In this document: piece after piece, positions 708 to 10,069 of the stretch
Layout: each line of letters opens with the position of its first letter
Position numbering within the stretch: the stretch's first letter is position 1
Assembly (NCBI GenBank): GCA_021802115.1
Contig: JAKABA010000141.1
Span: 1 to 10,069, forward strand
Direction of reading: 5' to 3'
DNA: 10,069 nucleotides
Source: a bacterium
Lineage (GTDB): Bacteria; Chloroflexota; Dormibacteria; UBA8260; Bog-877
Translations under genes and position numbers: made by a program
The notes under the pieces: generated by a model
Seen by the model: only the letters and a program-made list of their open reading frames with translations
The model's database searches: none
Told to the model about the DNA's origin: nothing

Positions 708-1388
708 CTACTCGGCCGCCACAACCCGGCCTACCTCCAAGGCCACGAAGCGCGTGCAGAGCAGCTGCGTAAGCGCTGCGCTCTGCTCCGCGATTACGAT
801 CGCCACCCCCGTGTCGTGCTGCACGCTGGCCAGGACATCCATGAGGCCCTCAGCCAGGCGCGGGGCAAGACCAAGCGTCGGCTCGTCCAGCACCAGCACC
901 TGCGGCCGGGCCATCATGGCGCGCCCGACCGCAAGTGCTTGGCGCTCGCCTCCGCTCAACTGGCCAGCCTTTCGCTTTCTCAGCCTCTCCAGCACGGGGA
1001 GCAGCGTCAGTACATCGCGAGCCCGCCGGTCACGCGGGCCCCTCGCGTCCCAGGGCGCGGCGCTGTACAGGTTCTCCATAACCGTGAGGTCGGTAAAGAC
1101 GTTTCCCGACTCAGGCACGAAGCGCACCCCTGATGCCACGCTGTCGGCGACGCGCCTGATCTCCGTGCCCCTGCGCAGGACCCGGCCGCTGTCCGGCTTC
1201 ACCAGGCCCACAAGCGTCCTAACCAGCGTCGTCTTGCCCGCTCCGTTGCGCCCGAGGACGGCCACGGACTCACCCTTTCGAACCGACAGGCTCACGTCCT
1301 GGAGGGCGATCGCCCCCGCAAAGTAAACACACAATCCCTGCCCGGACAGTTCCTCAGGCACGTCGCCCGCCGCGGGCTGGTCGATCAT
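708..1388 (-). CDS. livF: LivF-type ABC transporter ATP-binding protein, C-terminus trimmed
   Basis: 226-aa nucleotide-binding subunit of a branched-chain amino-acid-type (HAAT) importer. It would hydrolyse ATP at the cytoplasmic face as the partner of LivG. Visible motifs: Walker A GRNGAGKT (46-53), LivF-type TVMENL (102-107), signature LSGGE (144-148) and Walker B VLVLDEP (164-170). IAEQS (199-203) corresponds to the LivF-typical VEQN in place of the usual H-loop. The ATG overlaps the livG stop as ATGA, a sign of translational coupling. Compared with the family it has about 15 extra N-terminal residues. It ends at GRVVAAE, lacking the usual last ~18-20 residues (the region ending like AYLG). 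The stop is 8 bp from the IS tip at 699, so I infer that IS insertion or deletion trimmed the 3' end. All catalytic motifs remain, so it may still work. True substrate unknown. Confidence 0.93.
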   Translation of the reverse strand: MIDQPAAGDVPEELSGQGLCVYFAGAIALQDVSLSVRKGESVAVLGRNGAGKTTLVRTLVGLVKPDSGRVLRRGTEIRRVADSVASGVRFVPESGNVFTDLTVMENLYSAAPWDARGPRDRRARDVLTLLPVLERLRKRKAGQLSGGERQALAVGRAMMARPQVLVLDEPTLGLAPRLAEGLMDVLASVQHDTGVAIVIAEQSAALTQLLCTRFVALEVGRVVAAE

Positions 1389-2089
1389 TCTCTGACCTTC
1401 CCATAGTAAGCCGCTTGCACCGCGGGGAGGTTCAGTACCGCCCTTGGCTCGCCATCCCCCAACACTCGGCCAAAGTCCAACACCACCAGTTGCTCCGCGA
1501 AGGCGGCGACGCGCTCCACATCGTGCTCAACGACAAGGAGACTGACGCCACCTTCTTGGACAATCATCGTGAGTGTCGCCATCATCTCGTCCCGAGCGGT
1601 CCCGTCCAGGCCCGACAAGGGCTCATCGCAGACCAGCCACGACCTGCCGATCAGAAGTCCACGCCCGACGTCAATCAACTTTCTGATTCCGTAGGGAAGG
1701 GCGCTGGCGGGTCGATCCAGCCAACCTCCGACCCCGAGAAGGTCGCAGACGCGATCCACTTCCCGCCGCGACGCACGGCCCGCGCAGACTTCGAGGTTCT
1801 CCCTGACCGTGAGACTTGGGACAATGGTCGGGTGCTGGAAGCTGCGCCCCAGGCCCCGCTTCGCTCGGCTGCCCACGGATTGCGCCGACACCTCGCTGCC
1901 GTTCAGGTATACCGCTCCACGCGACAGCCAGGCGAACCCGCAAATGGCATTGAGCAGAGTCGTCTTGCCAGCACCATTGGGGCCAACGATCGCGCAGCGC
2001 GCCTTACCGAATGTCACGGTAACCCCGTCCACCGCGTGCACCCCTCCGAAGGTTACACCGACGTCGTCCAACCGCAATTCAGCGGTCAC
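1385..2089 (-). CDS. livG: LivG-type ABC transporter ATP-binding protein
   Basis: 234-aa ATPase subunit of the same HAAT-type importer. Visible motifs: Walker A GPNGAGKT (36-43), Q-loop in GRSFQHP (Q85), LivG-type signature LPYGIRK (131-137), Walker B WLVCDEP (151-157) and the H-loop His in VVEHD (H189). The C-terminus has the family tail AVQAAYYG, so unlike livF it is complete. The start is GTG: an in-frame TGA lies two codons upstream, there is no ATG alternative nearby, and a GGGGAG purine run sits upstream of it. It overlaps livF by 4 bp and follows livHM after 75 bp. A short ORF (2079-2117) with a good ribosome site overlaps its start and might couple its translation. Confidence 0.95.
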   Translation of the reverse strand: MTAELRLDDVGVTFGGVHAVDGVTVTFGKARCAIVGPNGAGKTTLLNAICGFAWLSRGAVYLNGSEVSAQSVGSRAKRGLGRSFQHPTIVPSLTVRENLEVCAGRASRREVDRVCDLLGVGGWLDRPASALPYGIRKLIDVGRGLLIGRSWLVCDEPLSGLDGTARDEMMATLTMIVQEGGVSLLVVEHDVERVAAFAEQLVVLDFGRVLGDGEPRAVLNLPAVQAAYYGKVRE

Positions 2090-2164: not shown

Positions 2165-4030
2165 CTAAGATCCCTGCGCGGGCCGGCCGGTGACCGCCCC
2201 GCGTTCCACGGCCCTGGAGTAGATCCAGGCAAGGACCGTTTCGAACCCGCCCGGCCAGAGAATTACCACCACCACCAGCGCTGTGCCGAATACGATGGGG
2301 GGCCAATTCGTCAGTCCTGCTAGCAGCGTCGGTAGCACCACAACGAACGCCGCGCCGGCCAATGCGCCCACCGGCCCCCAAGCCCCCCCGATAATCACCC
2401 CTGCCAGAAGCGTCACGCTCACTGACACGTCCACCGAGGTAGGGCTCACATAGCCCCCGAGGACAGCCACCGCCGCGCCGCTGAGGCCGATGATGGCTGC
2501 TCCGAGTCCCTCAACTGCCGCCATGTGGAACCCACGGCGCACCCCGCTGGCCACTGCCCGGCTCGGGTCCGCGACGAGCATGAGCGTCCGGCCGCCGACA
2601 CGCCGCAGGCCGAACATAAGCGCTGCCCCGAGCCCAACGAGGAGCATGGCACCCAGTATGAGGGTCATGCCGAAGAGGCTCCCAGCTGGGGGCGTCACGT
2701 ACATTCCCTCGGCACCCCCAGTCCAGTGAGCCAGTACCAGCGCCAGATCGGCTACGGACGCGGTGAGGACAAGTGTGAGGGTTACGTAGTAGATGTCTTC
2801 CATTCGGTGGGTGACCCAGCCCACCAGGGCCCCAACTATCCCGGCTGCCACCACGGACCCGACCAGCGCGACTACCCACCAGACGTGGTCTCCCGTAGCA
2901 ATCGCGTACACGTACGAGCCCACGGCCAGGTATGCTGCCCCACCGAGGTTGACCCTCCCGGCGTAGCGCGTGATTAGGGCTAGGCCGGTGACCCCAATGG
3001 CATAAGCAATGACCAGCTCTGCAGTGTTCTGGGCTCCACCGCTGAGCAGGAGCATCGCCCCTAAGGCGATCACCAGCGCCACTACCAACTCGCCCACCGC
3101 TACCCGCCGGCCAGTCCTCGCCGCCTTGTAGTGGGGGCGGATCTCAAAGGCCTTGCTGCCGAGCACGACTCTCCCCCGCCACAGCGCACCAGGGTCCAGG
3201 CGGGTGCGGACCACGAACACGATGCTGAGGAGTACCAGCAGGGCAGTGTTGGTAAGCGGTACGTCCACGTACCGAGTGATCAAGTTCGTGATCACGCCAA
3301 CCACCACGGCTCCAATCAGCGTAAGGGGAATGTTTCGGAATGCCCCCCACGACGCCGCGACGGAAGCCGACAGTAGGAATGACACCTCAACAGTGGTGCT
3401 GATCTCCTGATAGGCCGCGAAAAGCACTATTGCCCACGCCGCCACCACGCCCGCAATCACCCAGATGCTGAGCCGGAGCCAGAACGTCGAGACGCCGCTC
3501 AGCAGCGTGAGCTCCGCATTGGAGGCTCCCATGCGCAGCGCCAGCCCGTACCTGGTGCCGAAGAGCAACCAGGCGAAGAGACCCAGCCCGACCGCGGCGC
3601 TCCCAATGATAACCACTCCTGCCAGAGGCAGACTGGTACCCAATATGGTCACAGAGTCCGCGGTCGGAAACAGGTTGAATGTGTAGGGGTTGTACCCAAA
3701 GAACTGGGCAAGCAGCCCGCCAGCAATCGTGCTCACACCAAGTGTCGTGACCATGGTCGCCAACACCCCCGCCCGGCGCACCTCCAACGGCCGAATGCAG
3801 GTCAGGTACACCAAGGCGCTGGCCACCCCAGACGCGACCAGCCCGAAGACCACCGCCAGCCAGAGAGGAACCTGCCTAGATGCCAGGGTGATTGTAATGA
3901 ATGCTCCCACCGCTCCCACGCTTCCCTGCGCGAAGTTGAAAGCACCGGATGTCCGGTAAATGAGAACCAATCCGACCACCAGGAGGGCGTACACGCTTCC
4001 TAGGATCAGCCCACCGATGAAAAGGCCCAA
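2165..4030 (-). CDS. Fused LivH-LivM-type ABC transporter permease
   Basis: 621-aa membrane protein joining the two permeases of a HAAT importer in one chain. Residues ~1-275 are LivH-like: GLILGSVYALLVVGL at the N-terminus and FNFAQG (31-36) for the family N-F-A-[HQ]-G motif. A basic linker (~276-310) follows. Residues ~311-610 are LivM-like: RYAGRVNLGGAAYLAVGSY (355-373), TGGAEGM (437-443), ADPSRAVASGV (487-497) and GAWGPVGALAGA (549-560). Most of the rest is hydrophobic, fitting roughly 15 or more membrane segments. The start is TTG, supported by AGGAGA at 4039-4044 with 8-nt spacing and an in-frame TAG just upstream. The cytoplasmic ATPases are the next two genes. The fused arrangement predicts one chain forming the whole channel. 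Confidence 0.94.
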   Translation of the reverse strand: MGLFIGGLILGSVYALLVVGLVLIYRTSGAFNFAQGSVGAVGAFITITLASRQVPLWLAVVFGLVASGVASALVYLTCIRPLEVRRAGVLATMVTTLGVSTIAGGLLAQFFGYNPYTFNLFPTADSVTILGTSLPLAGVVIIGSAAVGLGLFAWLLFGTRYGLALRMGASNAELTLLSGVSTFWLRLSIWVIAGVVAAWAIVLFAAYQEISTTVEVSFLLSASVAASWGAFRNIPLTLIGAVVVGVITNLITRYVDVPLTNTALLVLLSIVFVVRTRLDPGALWRGRVVLGSKAFEIRPHYKAARTGRRVAVGELVVALVIALGAMLLLSGGAQNTAELVIAYAIGVTGLALITRYAGRVNLGGAAYLAVGSYVYAIATGDHVWWVVALVGSVVAAGIVGALVGWVTHRMEDIYYVTLTLVLTASVADLALVLAHWTGGAEGMYVTPPAGSLFGMTLILGAMLLVGLGAALMFGLRRVGGRTLMLVADPSRAVASGVRRGFHMAAVEGLGAAIIGLSGAAVAVLGGYVSPTSVDVSVSVTLLAGVIIGGAWGPVGALAGAAFVVVLPTLLAGLTNWPPIVFGTALVVVVILWPGGFETVLAWIYSRAVERGAVTGRPAQGS

Positions 4031-4038
4031 GCGAACTA

Positions 4039-4044
4039 TCTCCT
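4039..4044 (-). promoter_or_regulatory. Ribosome binding site deciding the TTG start of livHM
   Basis: AGGAGA on the minus strand, 8 nt upstream of the TTG at 4030-4028. An in-frame TAG overlaps it, so translation cannot begin farther upstream. Confidence 0.7.
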
Positions 4045-4285
4045 ATGGTTCACGATGCTGTGCAACCGTCTATCTATGGCACCGGGACCCCGCACCGCCG
4101 AGCCAGGCCAAGCCAGGCTAGTACGGCACCGCGTCCGGGTCGTCCCGCAGCCGCGATCGCCGCCGATGTCAGCCAACCGGCCGCGCTGCCAGTGGCTCCA
4201 GGCGAAAACTCCCGGGCCGGCCCCCCCGACCAACATGCCCTGAGTGGGCCAGTCTGGTCTGCGGCTGATCCTGTCACTCCCGCCC

Positions 4286-5635
4286 CTACTGGAGATGGCG
4301 TTCGCCGCGGCCGACATAGAGCTGCCTCGGCCGGCCGATCCTCTGCTCTGGGTCCTGAACACTTTCCACCCAATGCGCCAGCCACCCGGGCGTCCGCCCA
4401 ATCGCGAAGAGCACCGGGAACATCCCGACCGGAAGGCCCATCGCCAGATAGATGATGCCAGAGTAGAAGTCGACATTCGGGTACAGCTTGTGCGAGACGA
4501 AGTATTCATCCTCCAGGGCGATGCGTTCGATCTCCTGAGCTACTTGCAGCAGAGGACTTGGCCCCGTCACCTCGAACACTTCATCCGCGATCCGCTTGAT
4601 CAGTTGCGCTCGAGGGTCGAAGTTCTTGTACACCCGGTGGCCGAAGCCCATCAGGCGGAACTCCCCGGCCTTCACCCGCTGGATGTACTCCGGGACAGCT
4701 GCTTTGGTGCCGATCCGGTTGAGCATTAGCAAGACCTGCTCATTGGCTCCGCCGTGGAGCGGGCCGTACAGCGCCGCACAGGCTCCAGACATCGCGGCAT
4801 ACGGGTCTGCCATAGAGCTTCCGACCAGCCGCATGGTGCTGGTCGAGCAGTTCTGCTCATGGTCAGCATGCAGCGTCAGAAGGACGTCCAGAGCCCGCTG
4901 CAGGACAGGATGGGGCTGATTCCTGTTGGCGGTACCGCGCCAGAGCATGGTGAGGAGGTTACCCGTGTACGGTAGAGTGGGGTCCGGGTAGACGTAGGGA
5001 AGGCCCCGGTTGTGTCGATAGATGAAGGCGGCAATCGTCGGCATCTTCGCGATGAGGCGAATGACCTGCGTCGCCCGCGATGCGGGGTCGTCGACCTGCT
5101 TGGCCTCGGGATAGAACGTGGACAGCCCAGCCACCACGGACCCCAATACCCCCATGGGGTGCGCATCATACGGGAACGCATCGATCAACTTCCGGGCGGC
5201 CTCGTGAACGCCTGCGTTCCGGGCAATCTCGCTCGACCAGGAGGCGATCTCGTTAGGGGTCGGCAGCTCGCCGTGCAGCAGTAGGTACGCGACCTCCAAG
5301 AAGGTCTTTTTCACGGCCAGCTCCTCGATTGGGTAGCCGCGATAGCGAAGGATCCCTTTCTCTCCGTCAATGAACGTGATGGTGCTGCGACAGCTGGCGG
5401 TATTCACAAAGGCAGGGTCATAGCTGAGGAGGCCAAAATCGTACCCGCTCGCTTTGATCTGACGCAGGTCAGGCGCTCGGACCGCCCCATCCACGATCTC
5501 CAGCTCGTAAGTCCGGTTAGTGCGTCTGTCCGTAATCTCGAGTTTCGCTTCAGCATCCTCAGTTGTCGGCACAACTCCCCCCCATTTGCCACAGGCATCC
5601 GTATCCATCTGAAGATCGGGAGTGGGCAGCGGCAA
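4286..5635 (-). CDS. gltA: Citrate synthase (type II, GltA-like)
   Basis: Condenses oxaloacetate and acetyl-CoA to citrate and CoA in the cytoplasm. With the chosen start it has 449 aa, and all hallmark blocks are present. HADHEQNCSTST begins at H256. GPLHGGAN contains the first catalytic His (H294), GFGHRVYKNFDPRA the second (H333), and YPNVDFYSG the catalytic Asp (D389). It ends with the family's GRPRQLYVG. These match E. coli His264, His305 and Asp362. Start: the frame is open far upstream. I chose TTG 5635 because it alone has an ideal ribosome site (GGAGG, 6-nt spacing). ATG 5608 (440 aa) or GTG 5572 (428 aa, closer to usual length) are possible. It lies between a lyase-like gene and transporter genes, unusual for a housekeeping copy, which suggests a pathway-specific role. 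A 2-methylcitrate synthase activity cannot be excluded by eye. Confidence 0.95.
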   Translation of the reverse strand: MPLPTPDLQMDTDACGKWGGVVPTTEDAEAKLEITDRRTNRTYELEIVDGAVRAPDLRQIKASGYDFGLLSYDPAFVNTASCRSTITFIDGEKGILRYRGYPIEELAVKKTFLEVAYLLLHGELPTPNEIASWSSEIARNAGVHEAARKLIDAFPYDAHPMGVLGSVVAGLSTFYPEAKQVDDPASRATQVIRLIAKMPTIAAFIYRHNRGLPYVYPDPTLPYTGNLLTMLWRGTANRNQPHPVLQRALDVLLTLHADHEQNCSTSTMRLVGSSMADPYAAMSGACAALYGPLHGGANEQVLLMLNRIGTKAAVPEYIQRVKAGEFRLMGFGHRVYKNFDPRAQLIKRIADEVFEVTGPSPLLQVAQEIERIALEDEYFVSHKLYPNVDFYSGIIYLAMGLPVGMFPVLFAIGRTPGWLAHWVESVQDPEQRIGRPRQLYVGRGERHLQ

Positions 5636-5641
5636 GCCACT

Positions 5642-5646
5642 CCTCC
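5642..5646 (-). promoter_or_regulatory. Ribosome binding site favouring TTG 5635 for citrate synthase
   Basis: GGAGG on the minus strand, 6 nt upstream of the TTG at 5635. ATG 5608 has no purine-rich site, and GTG 5572 has only a G-run (GGGGGGGAG) placed too close at 2 nt. The choice conflicts mildly with family length, so confidence is moderate. Confidence 0.45.
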
Positions 5647-5771
5647 GCGGACGGCCAGAACGATGCGCTCCTACCCTGTTGCGCCGTTGCACGTGACCAG
5701 CCACGCTGGTGGCGGTCCCGCACTCGATCGGCGGACCCGTGCGACCTTGGGGCGCTAGGCATGCTTTGCTC

Positions 5772-7262
5772 CTAGCCTGCTGCAAGCTGCGCCAGACCGT
5801 TGGCGAGCTGGGCCGCCGCTCGCTCATCATCGGCAAGGGCTGTCTCAACGAGAGCGGCATCCCTTTCCAGGGCTGAACGAGCCGCCTCTAGTTGCTCTCT
5901 GGTGCGGGCCGTGGAGGTTCCACCCCTTAGGGCGTGGGAGGCGACGACTGCGGGCACTCTGGTCCTGGCCTCGAGGGCGGCAACATCGCTCCCCTTGCCA
6001 CTGTCGAGCAGCGGCTGCAGGCGAGCTGACAGGGCCGATAGGTCATGGGTGTCCAGGGCCTGTCCAGCGCGACCCTGACCTTCTCGGTCGCGCTGGAACT
6101 CTGCGATGGCCCCGTGCGCGTCGCGGTAGGGCACCCCTCGCTCTCCGATGAGCCAAGCCAGTACGCCACCTACGACCGCGCTTGAGCTGTCGGCCGCGCG
6201 CCTGAGGCGGGCCTCGTCCACTTCGAGGTGGACCATCAGCTCCCTCAGCACCCGAAGGGCCCGGTTAGCTTCGTCGGACTGTCTTAGCACTTGCAGCGGC
6301 AACAGGGTCGCAGCTTCCAACTGCTCCGACGGCGCTTTTACGGCGCTAAGGCCTTCCATCAACCCGCCAGCGCCAACCGCTGCCAAGCCGCAGAGGAACT
6401 CTAGTACGTAGGGTATCCGCATATGTGGTGCAACGCTGGACGTGATGCTGAGCTGCCCGGGTATCCGTACAAAACCAAACTCGCTGGTGCTCCAGACGAG
6501 CAGGTCCGTTGCTAGCCGGGCGAGGGTGGTGTCTAGAATCGCCAGCCCGGCTAGGGTCTGAATCAAGTAGTCGTAGTTGCGAATCCCGTCGCGCGCGTTC
6601 AGGCATGGACGGGGGAAGCCGAGCAACTGGTCGAGCTGCTCAAGTGCCACGTGGTACGGGGTCCCAAAGCCTCCGTCGGACCCGACCACGCTGACATTCA
6701 CCACTTGGTATGAGTCGTACAGGCGCTGAGCATCGCGCTCCAGCGCCGCGCCCCAAGAGAGCAGGTAGTACCCCAGGGTGGTGAGGTCGATATGTTGGAG
6801 GTAGCTGTACCCCGGCATGTAAGTCTCGAGGTGGTCGGCTGCTAGGGCCAGGACGGCTCGCCTCACTTCAACGAGCGCGATCTGGACGCCCAGGATTCGC
6901 CTGCGCGCCGAGAGGCGGCTCGCCACTGCCCGGATCGACGGGCTGGACCGCCCCAGGTGGAGGAGGCTAGCGCTCTCGGGGCCACAGACTTGTCGCAGGA
7001 ACTCCTCCCCGCCGTGGATAACATTGCTCAACTGCAGGCGCGCTTCAACAACCCCCTCCTCCTCCATCTGGCGCAAGGCTCGCGCCAGGCGTTGCAGGGT
7101 GGGTCCAGGAGCGAGGTCAGCGCGCGCGAGCATGACCAGCTGGGCCCGGTCATAGTCATGGACCGCGCGCAGAAAGTCGGGCTCCTTCATGATCTCCGCG
7201 TAGTAGTGCATGAGGTCCGGGCTTGCCGAAGCGCCCAATCGCTGAGACCAGAAGAAGCTCAC
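5772..7262 (-). CDS. Argininosuccinate lyase-superfamily protein with altered catalytic motifs
   Basis: 496-aa member of the fumarase/aspartase/ASL fold, whose known members eliminate fumarate from N- or C-substituted succinates. ASL-like order is clear: N-terminal FFWSQRL (ASL LWGGRF region), MPGYSYLQ (149-156, ASL MPGYTHLQ), LLGF (213-216), LLVWSTSEFGFV (254-265), an SSVAPHMRIP loop (275-284), then an ASL C-terminal domain with RGVPYRDAH and GGTSTARTREQLEAA. Hallmarks are missing. The GYTHLQ His is Tyr154, the HTGRSRND block reads HLGRSSPS, and the mobile SSxMPxKxNP loop keeps the serines but loses Met, Lys and Asn. It is therefore unlikely to be ordinary ASL; a new lyase or non-lyase activity is inferred. 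Start: GTG 7262 has AGAGGAAG at 7-nt spacing and matches the ASL N-terminus. ATG 7286 (504 aa) has its purine run abutting it. Neighbours are the binding-protein gene upstream and citrate synthase downstream. Confidence 0.88.
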   Translation of the reverse strand: MSFFWSQRLGASASPDLMHYYAEIMKEPDFLRAVHDYDRAQLVMLARADLAPGPTLQRLARALRQMEEEGVVEARLQLSNVIHGGEEFLRQVCGPESASLLHLGRSSPSIRAVASRLSARRRILGVQIALVEVRRAVLALAADHLETYMPGYSYLQHIDLTTLGYYLLSWGAALERDAQRLYDSYQVVNVSVVGSDGGFGTPYHVALEQLDQLLGFPRPCLNARDGIRNYDYLIQTLAGLAILDTTLARLATDLLVWSTSEFGFVRIPGQLSITSSVAPHMRIPYVLEFLCGLAAVGAGGLMEGLSAVKAPSEQLEAATLLPLQVLRQSDEANRALRVLRELMVHLEVDEARLRRAADSSSAVVGGVLAWLIGERGVPYRDAHGAIAEFQRDREGQGRAGQALDTHDLSALSARLQPLLDSGKGSDVAALEARTRVPAVVASHALRGGTSTARTREQLEAARSALERDAALVETALADDERAAAQLANGLAQLAAG

Positions 7263-7269
7263 GGATGTG

Positions 7270-7277
7270 CTTCCTCT
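7270..7277 (-). promoter_or_regulatory. Ribosome binding site deciding the GTG start of the lyase-like gene
   Basis: AGAGGAAG on the minus strand, 7 nt upstream of GTG 7262. The alternative ATG at 7286 is directly preceded by GGGGGAGGA with essentially no spacer, which is poor geometry. Confidence 0.55.
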
Positions 7278-7443
7278 CGGATCCATTCCTCCCCCATGCC
7301 CCAGTTATAGACGCATCGGGAACAGCTGGTGCTGCGTGTATAGGTACCGTGCAGTCGGAGATCCGTCACCGCTGCACCGCCCTGGTAGAGCATCCCGGAT
7401 ACACGTCTCAATCTAATGCCTCGCAAACAACGTGGGAGAGGAA

Positions 7444-7475
7444 GCGGCCGGTCCGCCTAGTGGCGGACCGGCCGC
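7444..7475 (-). terminator. Perfect 14-bp GC-rich hairpin between binding-protein and lyase genes
   Basis: Arms GCGGCCGGTCCGCC and GGCGGACCGGCCGC pair perfectly around a 4-nt loop, beginning 41 nt after the binding-protein stop on the minus strand. No U-tract follows (next bases TTCCTCTCC), so it is not a classic strong intrinsic terminator. In other importers, hairpins right after the binding-protein gene partly terminate transcription or protect the upstream mRNA, so the binding protein is made in excess over the membrane parts. That role is inferred here. The rest of the gap (7287-7443) shows no gene. Confidence 0.65.
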
Positions 7476-7516
7476 GGACCCCTATCCCAGGCGCCTAGTC
7501 AGTTGCCTCTGTCCGC

Positions 7517-8767
7517 TCACTGAGCAAGCGAGACCGGCAAACGGGGAACCGGAAGTGGCCCGTAGACGTGTGGTGTCGTCTGGGTTGAAGGATCGTACCT
7601 GTACATATTCTCGGTTGCCGTGGGAATGACGTTCGATGCGGAGAACGTCAGCGTCGCTCCGAGATTTCCTGGTTCGAAGGCTGGGCCCGTTTCGAGAGCC
7701 TTTATCAACGAGGCCCGAGTCGGGGTCTTGCCGCCCTTTGTGGCCAGCTGCAGGGCGTGGATGAACACGCCCATCCCAATCCACCCCAGGGCGGCCTGAG
7801 CGCTGGGGTTCTGGTCGGAGGTGTACTGCCGCACGATGCTGATCATTGACGACACGCCTGGGTTCGAGGTGTCGGTGATGGGCGTGAACCAAGAGTCGAA
7901 GTAAATGGTGTCACCGAGCGCCGAGACCGGCTGGAAGACGGCAGGCACCGCGTTGTAGAAGGGAAGGACCACGGTCGGGTGGTAACCGATGGCCGCGCAC
8001 GCCTTCAGGAGCGCGATCACGTTCGGCGGCTCACCAAAGTCGAGCAGGTACGGGGCGTTGGCGCTGGCCAGAGTCGCGGCGTAGCCGGAGAAGTCCGTGG
8101 CGTTCGGGTTGTAGCCCAGGTTGGCCGCGAGGGTGAGGTGGAGCTTGGAGACCTCGTACGGGACTCCGGGCGCGGCGCCTTCGCCCGGAGCGTCCTGGGT
8201 GTACGCGAGCGAGATCTTGGTGGCGTGGAGCACGTTGGCAAGGAACTCGACTTGGAATGCCGTGATCTCGTCAAATGGAACCTGGTACCCAAAGAAGAGC
8301 CCCTCAGGGGTGGTGATCCCCTGGTGGGCAAGCACGCCGGTGTCCATTGAGAATCCAATGTCTGGCACCTTGGCCTGCTTGAGGATCGGAACATCGGCGG
8401 CGTTGGTAGGCGTTCCGACCAAAGCGGCGACGGCGAAGATGTTGCTCGCCAGAAGTTGGTGGAGGTCAGAAACCGCGAGCGACGGCTGATACTGGTCGTC
8501 CAAGACCGTGTAGTGGAGCTTCCACCCGTTGACGCCGCCGTGGGCATTGACGTAGTCGACGTACGCCTGAGCGGCGACCGAACCCTCTCCGAAGAGGGAG
8601 TAGGCTCCCGTCTTGGCAGCGCTTGCCCCGATGTCGATCGTATGGGTCTTGGTATTGACACCCGGCGACGCCCCGGACCCGGACGTTGCCGACTGCCCAC
8701 AGGCAGTCAGGGCCACGGCGCATGCACACAGCAGGCCGGTTGCCCACCCTAGCTTAGAGCGGAGCAT
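7517..8767 (-). CDS. Lipoprotein substrate-binding protein of HAAT-type ABC importer (LivK-like)
   Basis: 416-aa extracytoplasmic binding protein (type 1 periplasmic-binding fold) that captures the substrate for the LivHM-LivG-LivF importer encoded downstream. The N-terminus MLRSKLGWATGLLCACAVAL with lipobox ALTAC (Cys23) marks a lipid-anchored lipoprotein. A Ser/Gly-rich spacer follows, then IDIGASAAKTG (44-54), YVNAHGGVNGWKL (72-84) and DDQYQPSLAV (90-99), the usual opening of LivK-like proteins. Near the C-terminus are LLKACAAIGYHP and a YRYDPSTQ motif. ATG 8767 was chosen because GGAGGG (8776-8781) stands 8 nt before it and the signal peptide starts there; the open frame back to 8857 gives a non-signal extension. 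It is first in the operon, ~110 nt downstream of the promoter. The ligand cannot be read from the sequence; the family binds amino acids, amides, urea and aromatic acids among others. Confidence 0.94.
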   Translation of the reverse strand: MLRSKLGWATGLLCACAVALTACGQSATSGSGASPGVNTKTHTIDIGASAAKTGAYSLFGEGSVAAQAYVDYVNAHGGVNGWKLHYTVLDDQYQPSLAVSDLHQLLASNIFAVAALVGTPTNAADVPILKQAKVPDIGFSMDTGVLAHQGITTPEGLFFGYQVPFDEITAFQVEFLANVLHATKISLAYTQDAPGEGAAPGVPYEVSKLHLTLAANLGYNPNATDFSGYAATLASANAPYLLDFGEPPNVIALLKACAAIGYHPTVVLPFYNAVPAVFQPVSALGDTIYFDSWFTPITDTSNPGVSSMISIVRQYTSDQNPSAQAALGWIGMGVFIHALQLATKGGKTPTRASLIKALETGPAFEPGNLGATLTFSASNVIPTATENMYRYDPSTQTTPHVYGPLPVPRLPVSLAQ

Positions 8768-8775
8768 GTCGGGTT

Positions 8776-8781
8776 CCCTCC
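8776..8781 (-). promoter_or_regulatory. Ribosome binding site of the binding-protein gene
   Basis: GGAGGG on the minus strand, 8 nt upstream of ATG 8767. It fixes the start at the lipoprotein signal peptide. Confidence 0.7.
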
Positions 8782-8853
8782 ATTCACGTCTGATAGACAC
8801 AACCGGCACGACCGGCATATGGCAATGGGCACGATGGTGTCTCACGCCGTGAT

Positions 8854-8880
8854 ACATGCGTTGTCAAACATGCAGCATGC
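8854..8880. promoter_or_regulatory. Possible operator: clustered CATG repeats at the predicted transcription start
   Basis: On the + strand ACATGC occurs at 8854-8859 and 8868-8873, 14 bp apart start to start. The second forms a perfect interrupted palindrome CATGC-A-GCATG at 8869-8879. It overlaps the predicted transcription start (~8878), so a bound repressor would block the promoter. No regulator gene is seen in the window. Candidate only. Confidence 0.3.
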
Positions 8881-8884
8881 GGGA

Positions 8885-8913
8885 TTTATACTCTTGGGCT
8901 CCCCGCATGTCAA
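8885..8913 (-). promoter_or_regulatory. Near-consensus sigma70-type promoter of the operon
   Basis: On the minus strand a perfect -35 TTGACA (8908-8913) is followed after exactly 17 bp by TATAAA (8885-8890), five of six matches to TATAAT. Predicted transcription start is near 8878, giving a ~110-nt leader before the binding-protein ATG. It is the best promoter match I noticed in the window and sits in the only place that can drive the whole minus-strand cluster. The -35 lies inside CTTGACATG (8906-8914), identical to the last nine bases of the IS tip at 9347-9361. Confidence 0.75.
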
Positions 8914-9346
8914 GGGTCAGGTTCACCCGGTCAAGTGTCCGGGGAGCAAGCGGTGTCCCGGGTTGGATGCGCCCAGCTAGGCGGAGGACTTGCAACCGAG
9001 ATTCCGCAGTTGGAGGGTTCGCTGGGGTGCCGGTGGCCTGAATTGAAGTTGACACGGGGGTCCCAACACGCCCTGGCACAGGTTTGTCAAAGGCGAATTG
9101 GAACTGGACGGTAGCGGCCACCGGAACTGGACAGGCACGGTGAGGCGGTCCTCGCTCTGGTTTCTTGGTAGTGGAGTGAGGGGTGCGGAGGGGAGGCGTG
9201 GACACCGCCGAGACCTTGGACGGCCCATGCGGTGCCGGGCCTGGCTGTGGGTGCCCGAGGCGGGCTAAGGCCCTGGAAGTAGTTTCCACAGTAGGCGTGG
9301 GCTCCAGCTTGCGGGGCGCTTCGGGTGGGGATCCCTCCCCGGACGT
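8914..9346. other. 433-bp stretch without a convincing gene, possible IS debris
   Basis: The open frames here are low-complexity (Pro/Thr/Arg-rich), lack ribosome sites and match nothing I recognise. The stretch lies between the operon promoter and the second IS256-type fragment. It contains the IS21-like repeated motif described separately (9035-9132). I see no RNA gene. Confidence 0.6.
9035..9132 (+). repeat. Three imperfect direct repeats, possibly an IS21-type element end
   Basis: Three copies of a motif near GGC-N-GAATTGGAACTGGAC: GGCCTGAATTGAAGTTGAC at 9035, GGCGAATTGGAACTGGAC at 9092-9109 and GGCCACCGGAACTGGAC at 9116-9132. Spaced repeats of such a GGCC...AACTGGAC type are characteristic of the multi-repeat ends of IS21-family elements. 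No istA or istB coding sequence remains nearby. The family assignment is from memory of the pattern, so tentative. Confidence 0.35.
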
Positions 9347-9361
9347 CATGTCAAGTCAAGT
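9347..9361 (-). repeat. IS256-type terminal repeat, right copy
   Basis: On the minus strand ACTTGACTTGACATG, 14 of 15 identical to the left copy at 685-699 and in inverted orientation. It begins 18 nt after the TAA of the IS256 transposase fragment (9380), the same relation as on the left. A CCACCACT sequence upstream also mirrors the left copy's CACCACT. Confidence 0.6.
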
Positions 9362-9379
9362 CCCTTTGAGTGGTGGAAA

Positions 9380-9604
9380 TTAGGGAGGGGCTGGGGGCAG
9401 TTCATCAGGCAGCCAGTCCTGCGGCGAGGGGTTGGTGAGGAGTTGCTGACCGTCGCCTGAGAGCAGGGCCACGGAGGCCTCGGAGAAGTGGCGCTTGCCG
9501 TCCTGCCACTCGTCGTGCTGCTCTTGGAGAACAGCGGTGGCCAGGCGCCGCAGGGATTCGGAGTTGGGGAAGGTCCCCACGACCTTGGCGCTGCGACCGT
9601 TGAG
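9380..9604 (-). pseudogene. IS256-family transposase C-terminal remnant
   Basis: The minus strand reads ...LNGRSAKVVGTFPNSESLRRLATAVLQ, then EQHDEWQDGKRHFS, matching the C-terminal block of IS256 transposases (compare VVGIFPNRQAVIRLVGAVL then EEQNVEW in the gene at 3-650). The run ends at TAA 9380-9382. Upstream of LN no catalytic Glu block or earlier transposase sequence can be read in any frame, and the spacing LN to VVG is three residues short. This is therefore a broken remnant rather than a gene. It differs enough from the left transposase to be a separate, older insertion or a different IS256 subgroup. Confidence 0.75.
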
Positions 9605-9803
9605 GTCCGATCGGGCGCGTCGTACCCGCGCCCGTGGACGTATTCATCAGCACCATATGCCCTAGCCGGTCCGGCCAGTCGTCGCGGGGCCTCACCGGCC
9701 CTGGGGCCCAACACGAGGCCCGGCAGGACTCCGGCCCCGGGGCGGGTAGGTTAGGAGCGTGCCTGGGGTGCGGCCGCGGCCCGCGCGTCACCCATTGCCA
9801 TGA

Positions 9804-9848
9804 GGCGCCGTCTCCCCTATGGTGGCGCTGACGGCGCCAGAAGGCGCC
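9804..9848. repeat. Three GGCGCC palindromes upstream of the ATP-grasp-like gene
   Basis: GGCGCC occurs at 9804-9809, 9833-9838 and 9843-9848. TGGCGC/GCGCCA and GGCGCC-AGAA-GGCGCC can each fold into short GC hairpins just before the ribosome site of the gene at 9874. It may be regulatory, or simply high-GC background. The rest of 9605-9873 holds nothing I recognise. Confidence 0.3.
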
Positions 9849-9860
9849 CCGAGCCGTTGC

Positions 9861-9866
9861 AGGGGG
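9861..9866 (+). promoter_or_regulatory. Ribosome binding site of the 3'-cut gene at 9874
   Basis: AGGGGG, 7 nt upstream of ATG 9874. It supports the start of the partial gene. Confidence 0.55.
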
Positions 9867-9873
9867 ACCGAGG

Positions 9874-10069
9874 ATGGAGGCCAGGGTCGGGCTCTTGGTC
9901 GGGGTCGAGAACACCTTTCCCGAGCCCTTCATCTCGCTGGTCAACGAGCGAGGCCGGGCCCATGGGGTCGTGGCCGAGATGTGCCGGCTGGGAGGGGCTC
10001 GCGAACTTGAGGACCGGCAGCGCTACCAGGTGATCGTCGACCGCATCTCCCACGAGGTCCCCTTCTACC
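9874..10069 (+). CDS. Probable ATP-grasp-type protein, 3' end cut by window
   Basis: The first 65 codons of a plus-strand gene that runs off the window. It starts MEARVGLLVGVENTFPEPF, continues through GVVAEMCRLGG and ends YQVIVDRISHEVPFY. I recognise this opening, especially DRISHEVPFY, from a family of conserved actinobacterial and proteobacterial proteins annotated as ATP-grasp (RimK-like ligase) domain proteins. Only the pre-grasp N-terminal domain is in view, so no ATP-binding residues can be checked. The codon pattern (GC-rich third positions) and the ribosome site AGGGGG at 9861-9866 support real coding. It points away from the operon and is separated from it by IS remnants, so no functional link is implied. 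Confidence 0.75.
   Translation, partial: MEARVGLLVGVENTFPEPFISLVNERGRAHGVVAEMCRLGGARELEDRQRYQVIVDRISHEVPFY

Follow-up and report, generated by a model that had tools for sequence, protein, structure and literature searches.

The gene at 5772..7262 of the window (the whole analysed stretch of 10,069 nucleotides) encodes a protein with the predicted fold of argininosuccinate lyase (ASL), which belongs to a conserved protein family, probably an active, uncharacterised lyase family of the aspartase/fumarase superfamily, as judged from its residue pattern. By the roles published for the corresponding residues, this family appears to keep the catalytic base and the beta-carboxylate pocket (S106, S107, S276), in the Ser-Ser form of fumarase as opposed to the Ser-Arg form of ASL, and to have replaced the Lys and Asn that hold the alpha-carboxylate in relatives. 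We consider it plausible, at somewhat short of an even chance, that the family is an active subfamily and not a broken ASL, and that its members are beta-elimination lyases acting, probably in catabolism, on a substrate without a normal alpha-carboxylate. The proposal of such an elimination is based on residue roles established in other enzymes.

The lyase gene and its surroundings

The features of the window on which the analysis is based are the following:

7517..8857, minus strand: periplasmic binding protein of the branched-chain amino acid type (PF13458, 150.2 bits)
7444..7475, minus strand: perfect 14-bp GC-rich hairpin, terminator-like without a T run, between the binding-protein and lyase genes (repeat search)
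7271..7278, minus strand: Shine-Dalgarno-like GAGAGGAA, 8 nt ahead of the lyase GTG
5772..7262, minus strand: ASL-fold lyase-like gene, 496 aa (open frame, PF00206, AF2 model and Foldseek)
6936..6959, minus strand: region C1, HLGRSSPS, residues 102-109 (alignment with ASL, EDDS lyase, XcbC and FumC)
6795..6818, minus strand: region C2, MPGYSYLQ, residues 149-156, with Y154 at the leaving-group His site (alignment)
6411..6440, minus strand: SS-loop, SSVAPHMRIP, residues 275-284 (alignment)
4286..5578, minus strand: citrate synthase (PRK05614, 558.8 bits against a cut-off of 505; start position estimated from the frame and the length of homologues)
2165..4030, minus strand: ABC permease with two BPD_transp_2 stretches, resembling a LivH-LivM fusion
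1385..2089, minus strand: ABC ATPase, LivG-like
708..1388, minus strand: ABC ATPase, LivF-like

The lyase frame is intact over 496 codons and starts with GTG at 7262-7260. Its product passed the cut-off of PF00206 (Lyase_1; 79.1 bits, cut-off 27), scored 20.2 bits against a cut-off of 27.3 with PF14698, the ASL C-terminal domain that is precomputed as present in some members of the family, and failed the models of XcbC (NF052535; 158.9 bits, cut-off 575) and nitrosuccinate lyase (NF052556; 23.4 bits, cut-off 650). The fold, the length, the motif positions and the catalytic Ser are shared with ASL, whereas the ASL equivalog model TIGR00838 was failed (178 bits, cut-off 279.5) and all three ASL signatures, HTGRSRND, GYTHLQ and SSxMPxKxNP, are altered in the alignment. 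Active sites in the superfamily are composed of residues from three chains of a homotetramer; the AF2 model of one chain (pLDDT 85.1, with the Y154 stretch at low confidence) superposed on ASL, delta crystallins and EDDS lyase in the Foldseek comparison, and its fold is also that of trans-aconitate decarboxylase Tad1. The preliminary description had read from the letters an ASL-fold protein carrying HLGRSSPS, MPGYSYLQ and SSVAPHMRIP; frame and alignment locate the motifs where it had them, and no normal catalytic His was detected elsewhere in the protein by alignment or in the 79 proteins of the family.

Region C1 corresponds to HTGRSRND in ASL and to SSND in fumarase, so that the Ser-Ser of the beta-carboxylate pocket has the fumarase form. 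In a MAFFT alignment with four FumC rows, SSND matches SSPS and GKVNP matches HMRIP; the match of the family profile to FumC was weak and did not cover the loop. The SS-loop of the window lyase retains the catalytic S275 together with S276, Lys is replaced by M281 and Asn by I283, and the Gly of the loop consensus GSSxxPxKxN is Thr.

The binding protein, lyase, citrate synthase, permease and two ATPases form a run of genes on the same strand, with gaps of ~190-255 bp between the binding-protein gene, lyase, citrate synthase and permease. The 61-nt stretch at 7430-7490 that contains the hairpin folds at -47.5 kcal/mol (z -6.8). A promoter and terminator scan of 3900-9000 gave 0 promoter-like sites and 1 terminator-like site, both below the shuffle means, and the hairpin at 7444..7475 was absent from the terminator output. 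Relatives of the citrate synthase were found at 98% and 87% and then at 73-74%, several of them named Candidatus Dormibacteria or Dormibacterota, and the 73-74% matches include single MAGs named Nanopelagicaceae and Acidoferrales. This citrate synthase is probably a housekeeping enzyme; because of that appearance and of the gaps, its functional coupling to the lyase seems weak. The LivH-like and LivM-like permease domains at 2165-4030 seem to be fused in one 621-aa protein. A Mutator-family transposase frame at 3-650, beyond the ABC transporter genes, is cut by the window edge, and the overlapping minus-strand ORFs at 8864-9944, which have no Pfam matches, are probably not genes.

Conservation, distribution and tree position of the family

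The protein search, in which only the 7,996 candidates with most words in common were scored, returned 99 matches; the best 79 of these reached at least 297 bits and the next one 191, which delimits a family of 79 proteins. S275, S276, S106, S107, H102, R111, R224 and R228 are unchanged in all 79. Site 154 is occupied by Tyr in 78 proteins and by Phe in one, site 281 by Met in 78 and by Lys in one (the loop Lys is also present in locus L014), and site 283 by Ile in 77, Asn in one and Val in one. The family departs from the loop consensus, with Lys and Asn each absent from 78 of the 79, and no family protein with normal ASL motifs was found. The substitutions first noticed in the window copy recur in its homologues, with S275/S276 kept and His absent throughout (79/79) and the loop Lys nearly so, and this conservation supports the early view that keeping the fold and the loop serines while the rest changed speaks for a new substrate or reaction over decay.

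Identity between the window lyase and the family amounts to 82% in the three motifs against 37% elsewhere (mean over 47 family rows), and in the motifs it is 35-42% with eight ASL rows, 33% with EDDS lyase and 28% with XcbC. The pN/pS ratio of 0.04-0.25 in 8 chosen pairs of Burkholderiales copies indicates purifying selection. ArgH above 600 bits is also present in 11 of 14 carrier genomes other than that of the window; of the remaining carriers, two have best ArgH matches of only 374.6 and 378.2 bits, and the third gave no match at 1e-90. An ASL-like group with HIGRSRID and MPAYTHxQPAQV was also observed in carrier genomes (L018, 3680-5182; L019, 7940-9454), where it exceeds the ArgH cut-off at only 374.6 and 347.8 bits.

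Decay of an ASL gene, or an error of annotation, would explain the motif losses and nothing else, and the probability of this explanation is negligible. For the family as a whole, ArgH decay is excluded because of the invariant residues, the concentration of identity in the motifs and the low pN/pS. For the window copy itself, its unbroken frame, conserved motifs and 85% identical sister, P0003, argue against decay, and the strong ArgH elsewhere in most carrier genomes also counts against this explanation.

A scan of ~85,000 species genomes with two short patterns yielded 16 loci, 15 of which belong to the family. The titles of 13 of these 15 are those of Betaproteobacteria, Burkholderiales or Bordetella MAGs; one of the other two is titled Chitinophaga pinensis, in a genome grouped in the same family group as the other carriers, and one Rhodospirillaceae. 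Judged by the relatives of its citrate synthase, the window seems to come from a different lineage. The gene is present in 12 of 74 genomes of one taxonomic family, in searches that were centred on carriers and include them, and in 2 of 300 genomes sampled from the order, both of them carriers known before. No relative of the lyase was found in the viral contigs searched, and plasmid records gave 126 matches, all below 60% identity, with the 40 matches listed at about 26-34%.

In a maximum-likelihood tree of 50 rows with a midpoint root, the family forms a single clade (support 100/100), and the P0081/P0082/L017 group is its sister (95/92). The sister group resembles the family in the HSGE motif, in GRSS and in the replacement of His by Phe in two of three members, but retains the loop Lys and Asn. 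The family's side of the tree (99/94) also contains XcbC and the P0087-type group, whereas ASL, EDDS lyase and others are on the opposite side, EDDS lyase with the ASL side at 98/94. The branching order is less certain than the grouping of the family as one clade because of the midpoint root and the long rows, including that of EDDS lyase. EDDS lyase (6g3d) is the closest solved relative in both fold and profile (224 bits, the best ASL reaching 185) in a list of solved-structure profile matches that contained no XcbC structure. It keeps HIGRSRND and SSIMPQKKNP, however, and its pocket residues R112, N113, N288 and D290 correspond to Ser107, Pro108, Ile283 and Tyr285 in the window lyase. No solved structure matches better, but the tree does not support a direct relationship with EDDS lyase: it puts the family on the side of XcbC and two further groups and not next to EDDS lyase or ASL.

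P0087, P0089, P0090, P0091 and P0094 constitute a second divergent group, one member of which is named Hyphomicrobiales. Its proteins are characterized by Ala/Val in place of the loop Lys/Asn (SSALPHAKVP in P0087) and by His-His in region C2. As this group stands near XcbC on a long branch, the loss of the pocket may have happened twice.

Carboxylate pockets and candidate chemistry

In the nitrosuccinate lyase CreD, Ser302 is the base, Ser303 holds the beta-carboxylate together with T122 and S123, Lys308 and Asn310 hold the alpha-carboxylate, and the S302A, K308A and N310A variants are inactive (PMC13411527). The alpha-carboxylate pocket of AspB is composed of Thr187, Met321, Lys324 and Asn326 (PMC11744663). 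At the two pocket sites outside the Lys/Asn pair, the Met is replaced in the family by Ser/Ala at 278 and the Thr by Ser at 153, so the pocket has not simply become apolar. Cleavage of another succinyl adduct, which had been suggested at the outset, fits poorly with this pattern because the Lys and Asn that bind the succinyl alpha-carboxylate are lost.

XcbC is the 2-phosphosulfolactate enzyme of coenzyme M synthesis in bacteria; in its substrate, phosphosulfolactate, the carbon with the leaving group bears the carboxylate and a sulfonate occupies the beta position. The XcbC copy used here (633.8 bits, cut-off 575), which is adjoined by genes over the cut-offs of the XcbD and XcbE models, keeps the loop Lys and Asn and has an altered beta pocket (A106, and K276 in place of the second Ser); this agrees with the pocket logic and serves as a consistency check. 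This one copy differs from the family in these residues, but it resembles the family in Arg at 224, in a similarly shortened stretch near 312-314 and in Tyr at the His site. The loss of that His, on which the preliminary description laid emphasis, has precedents also in proven enzymes, namely EDDS lyase with Gln159 (PMC12363623) and CreD with Leu170 (PMC13411527) at the usual His site. Since EDDS lyase, CreD and the XcbC copy share it, the His loss was rejected as the key novelty. Tyr for His, along with Pro for Asn at 108, suggests that the leaving group may not be a simple amine requiring protonation by His.

In the proposed reaction, S275 on the mobile SS-loop would take a proton beside the carboxylate held by S106, S107 and S276, which would give an aci-carboxylate intermediate, as across the superfamily, described as eliminating groups from succinate derivatives (PMC13411527). 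The group on the neighbouring carbon would then leave and an alpha,beta-unsaturated acid would be formed. The replacement of Lys by Met, Asn by Ile, Met by Ser/Ala and Thr by Ser alters the clamp, so that the carbon of the leaving group would be expected to carry, in place of the succinyl carboxylate, an uncharged or bulkier group or else a more distant acid group. The gene would probably serve to break down a small organic acid taken up by the cell.

The proposed elimination is favoured by the four invariant serines (S275, S276, S106 and S107), by the near-constancy of Met281 and Ile283, by the high identity in the motifs and by the low pN/pS. It is also favoured by the sister locus L017, in which molybdenum hydroxylase genes and TctC are followed by the lyase, an enoyl-CoA hydratase and an acyl-CoA ligase-like gene, the last two being what an unsaturated acid product would need. 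However, the sister group keeps Lys and Asn with the same S106/S107, and therefore its enoate-type neighbours need not speak for the family. Also to be set against this reading are the non-apolar changes at 278 and 153, the occurrence of the loop Lys in one of 79 proteins and in L014 and of Asn in one of 79, and the strong hairpin that parts the binding-protein gene from the lyase in the window. R111, R224 and R228, constant throughout the family but not the residues of ASL and EDDS lyase at these sites, could hold a displaced carboxylate.

Because K308A and N310A are inactive in CreD, the loss of both residues could also mean that there is no catalysis. The protein might then have kept the ASL fold for a structural or other role without catalysis, as delta-1 crystallin has. 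This would agree with the absence of these residues and of the His that is needed in several members of the superfamily, but all 79 proteins have both loop serines, conservation in the three motifs far exceeds that of the remaining sequence and the relatives lie among catabolic-type genes, which leaves this explanation very improbable.

Gene neighbourhoods, rival substrates and engineered counterparts

TctC receptor genes are located within two genes of the lyase in 14 of the 15 family loci; in the exception, L010, an upstream frame that clustered with TctC was displaced by the gene caller. TctC accounts for 22 of the 54 genes close to the lyase and for 20 of the 101 more distant genes, a twofold excess in raw counts over a high background. 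MmgE/PrpD genes occur within four genes of the lyase in 8 of 15 loci by BLAST, and a ninth locus, L050, was added by Pfam. Near L002 and L013 the cut-off (369) of the tricarballylate dehydrogenase (TcuA) model PRK08274 was passed with 594 and 572 bits, and that of the second TcuA model, TIGR02485, was not. In L050, PrpD (480.7 against 458 bits) and LeuC are over their cut-offs and PRK09425 was not passed; L005 has an OYE-type flavoenzyme and an amine-oxidase-like set, and CoA-transferase genes are single or double occurrences among the family loci. No XcbB/D/E or other coenzyme M genes were present among the neighbours scanned, several of which were compared with Pfam only, and no report joining ASL with TctC and MmgE/PrpD was found in the open-licence literature.

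These neighbours are partly consistent with other substrates. The family might comprise lyases for succinyl-amines or aminopolycarboxylates (EDDS, iminodisuccinate, opine-like chelators), in which R111/R224/R228 would hold the alpha-carboxylate. This would be in line with EDDS lyase as the closest solved relative by profile and Foldseek, with the amine-oxidase-like set directly upstream of the lyase in L005 and with the frequent MmgE/PrpD genes, as MmgE/PrpD is the family of iminodisuccinate epimerase (PMC7347537). Such a role is nevertheless rather improbable, given that EDDS lyase retains the Lys, the Asn and the RND of C1 that the family does not, and that it belongs, though on a long branch, to the ASL side of the tree. 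The idea that the enzyme is a lyase, isomerase or decarboxylase for tricarboxylates or compounds derived from them (of the tricarballylate, aconitate, methylcitrate or alkylcitrate type) has likewise only a modest chance of being correct. The TcuA, PrpD and LeuC matches, the nearby TctC genes, the citrate synthase adjoining the lyase in the window and the fold of Tad1 are in its favour, but TctC is generally common in these stretches, the window citrate synthase looks like a housekeeping enzyme and the neighbours vary widely between loci. The tricarballylate dehydrogenase, PrpD and LeuC neighbours point to polycarboxylates and count against the proposed elimination; together with the three family-specific arginines, they leave room for a second acid group held elsewhere.

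The proposed loss of the alpha pocket would have a counterpart in engineered AspB. AspB variants with I/I/M/C at the four alpha-pocket sites catalyse the hydroamination of acrylate, crotonate, pentenoate, fumaric monoamide or cinnamate are substrates of earlier variants, and of the two carboxylates the authors expect the mechanism to require the beta one only (PMC11744663). AspB-A1/6x (T187I M321I K324M N326C) shares with the family the Lys-to-Met change at the corresponding site and an apolar or less polar residue in place of the loop Asn; it is unlike the family in being engineered and in belonging to the aspartase branch, and at the other sites Ser153, Ser/Ala278 and Ile283 of the family stand against Ile, Ile and Cys (PMC11744663). 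It is possible, though on the whole unlikely, that a natural branch of the superfamily lost the alpha pocket and carries out beta-elimination, or the reverse addition, on substituted monocarboxylic acids with acrylate-type products. A natural superfamily member without the alpha pocket was not found described in the accessible text of the open-licence literature.

Recognition of the family would also correct its naming, as 19 of the 79 proteins are called argininosuccinate lyase by one source though the family fails TIGR00838. If the alpha pocket is indeed lost, the catalytic serine serves and the products are of the acrylate type, the family would be a natural counterpart of the engineered Lys-to-Met aspartases, in which evolution took the same route as protein engineers, and it would supply a starting scaffold and possibly a ready-made biocatalyst for hydroamination or hydrofunctionalisation.
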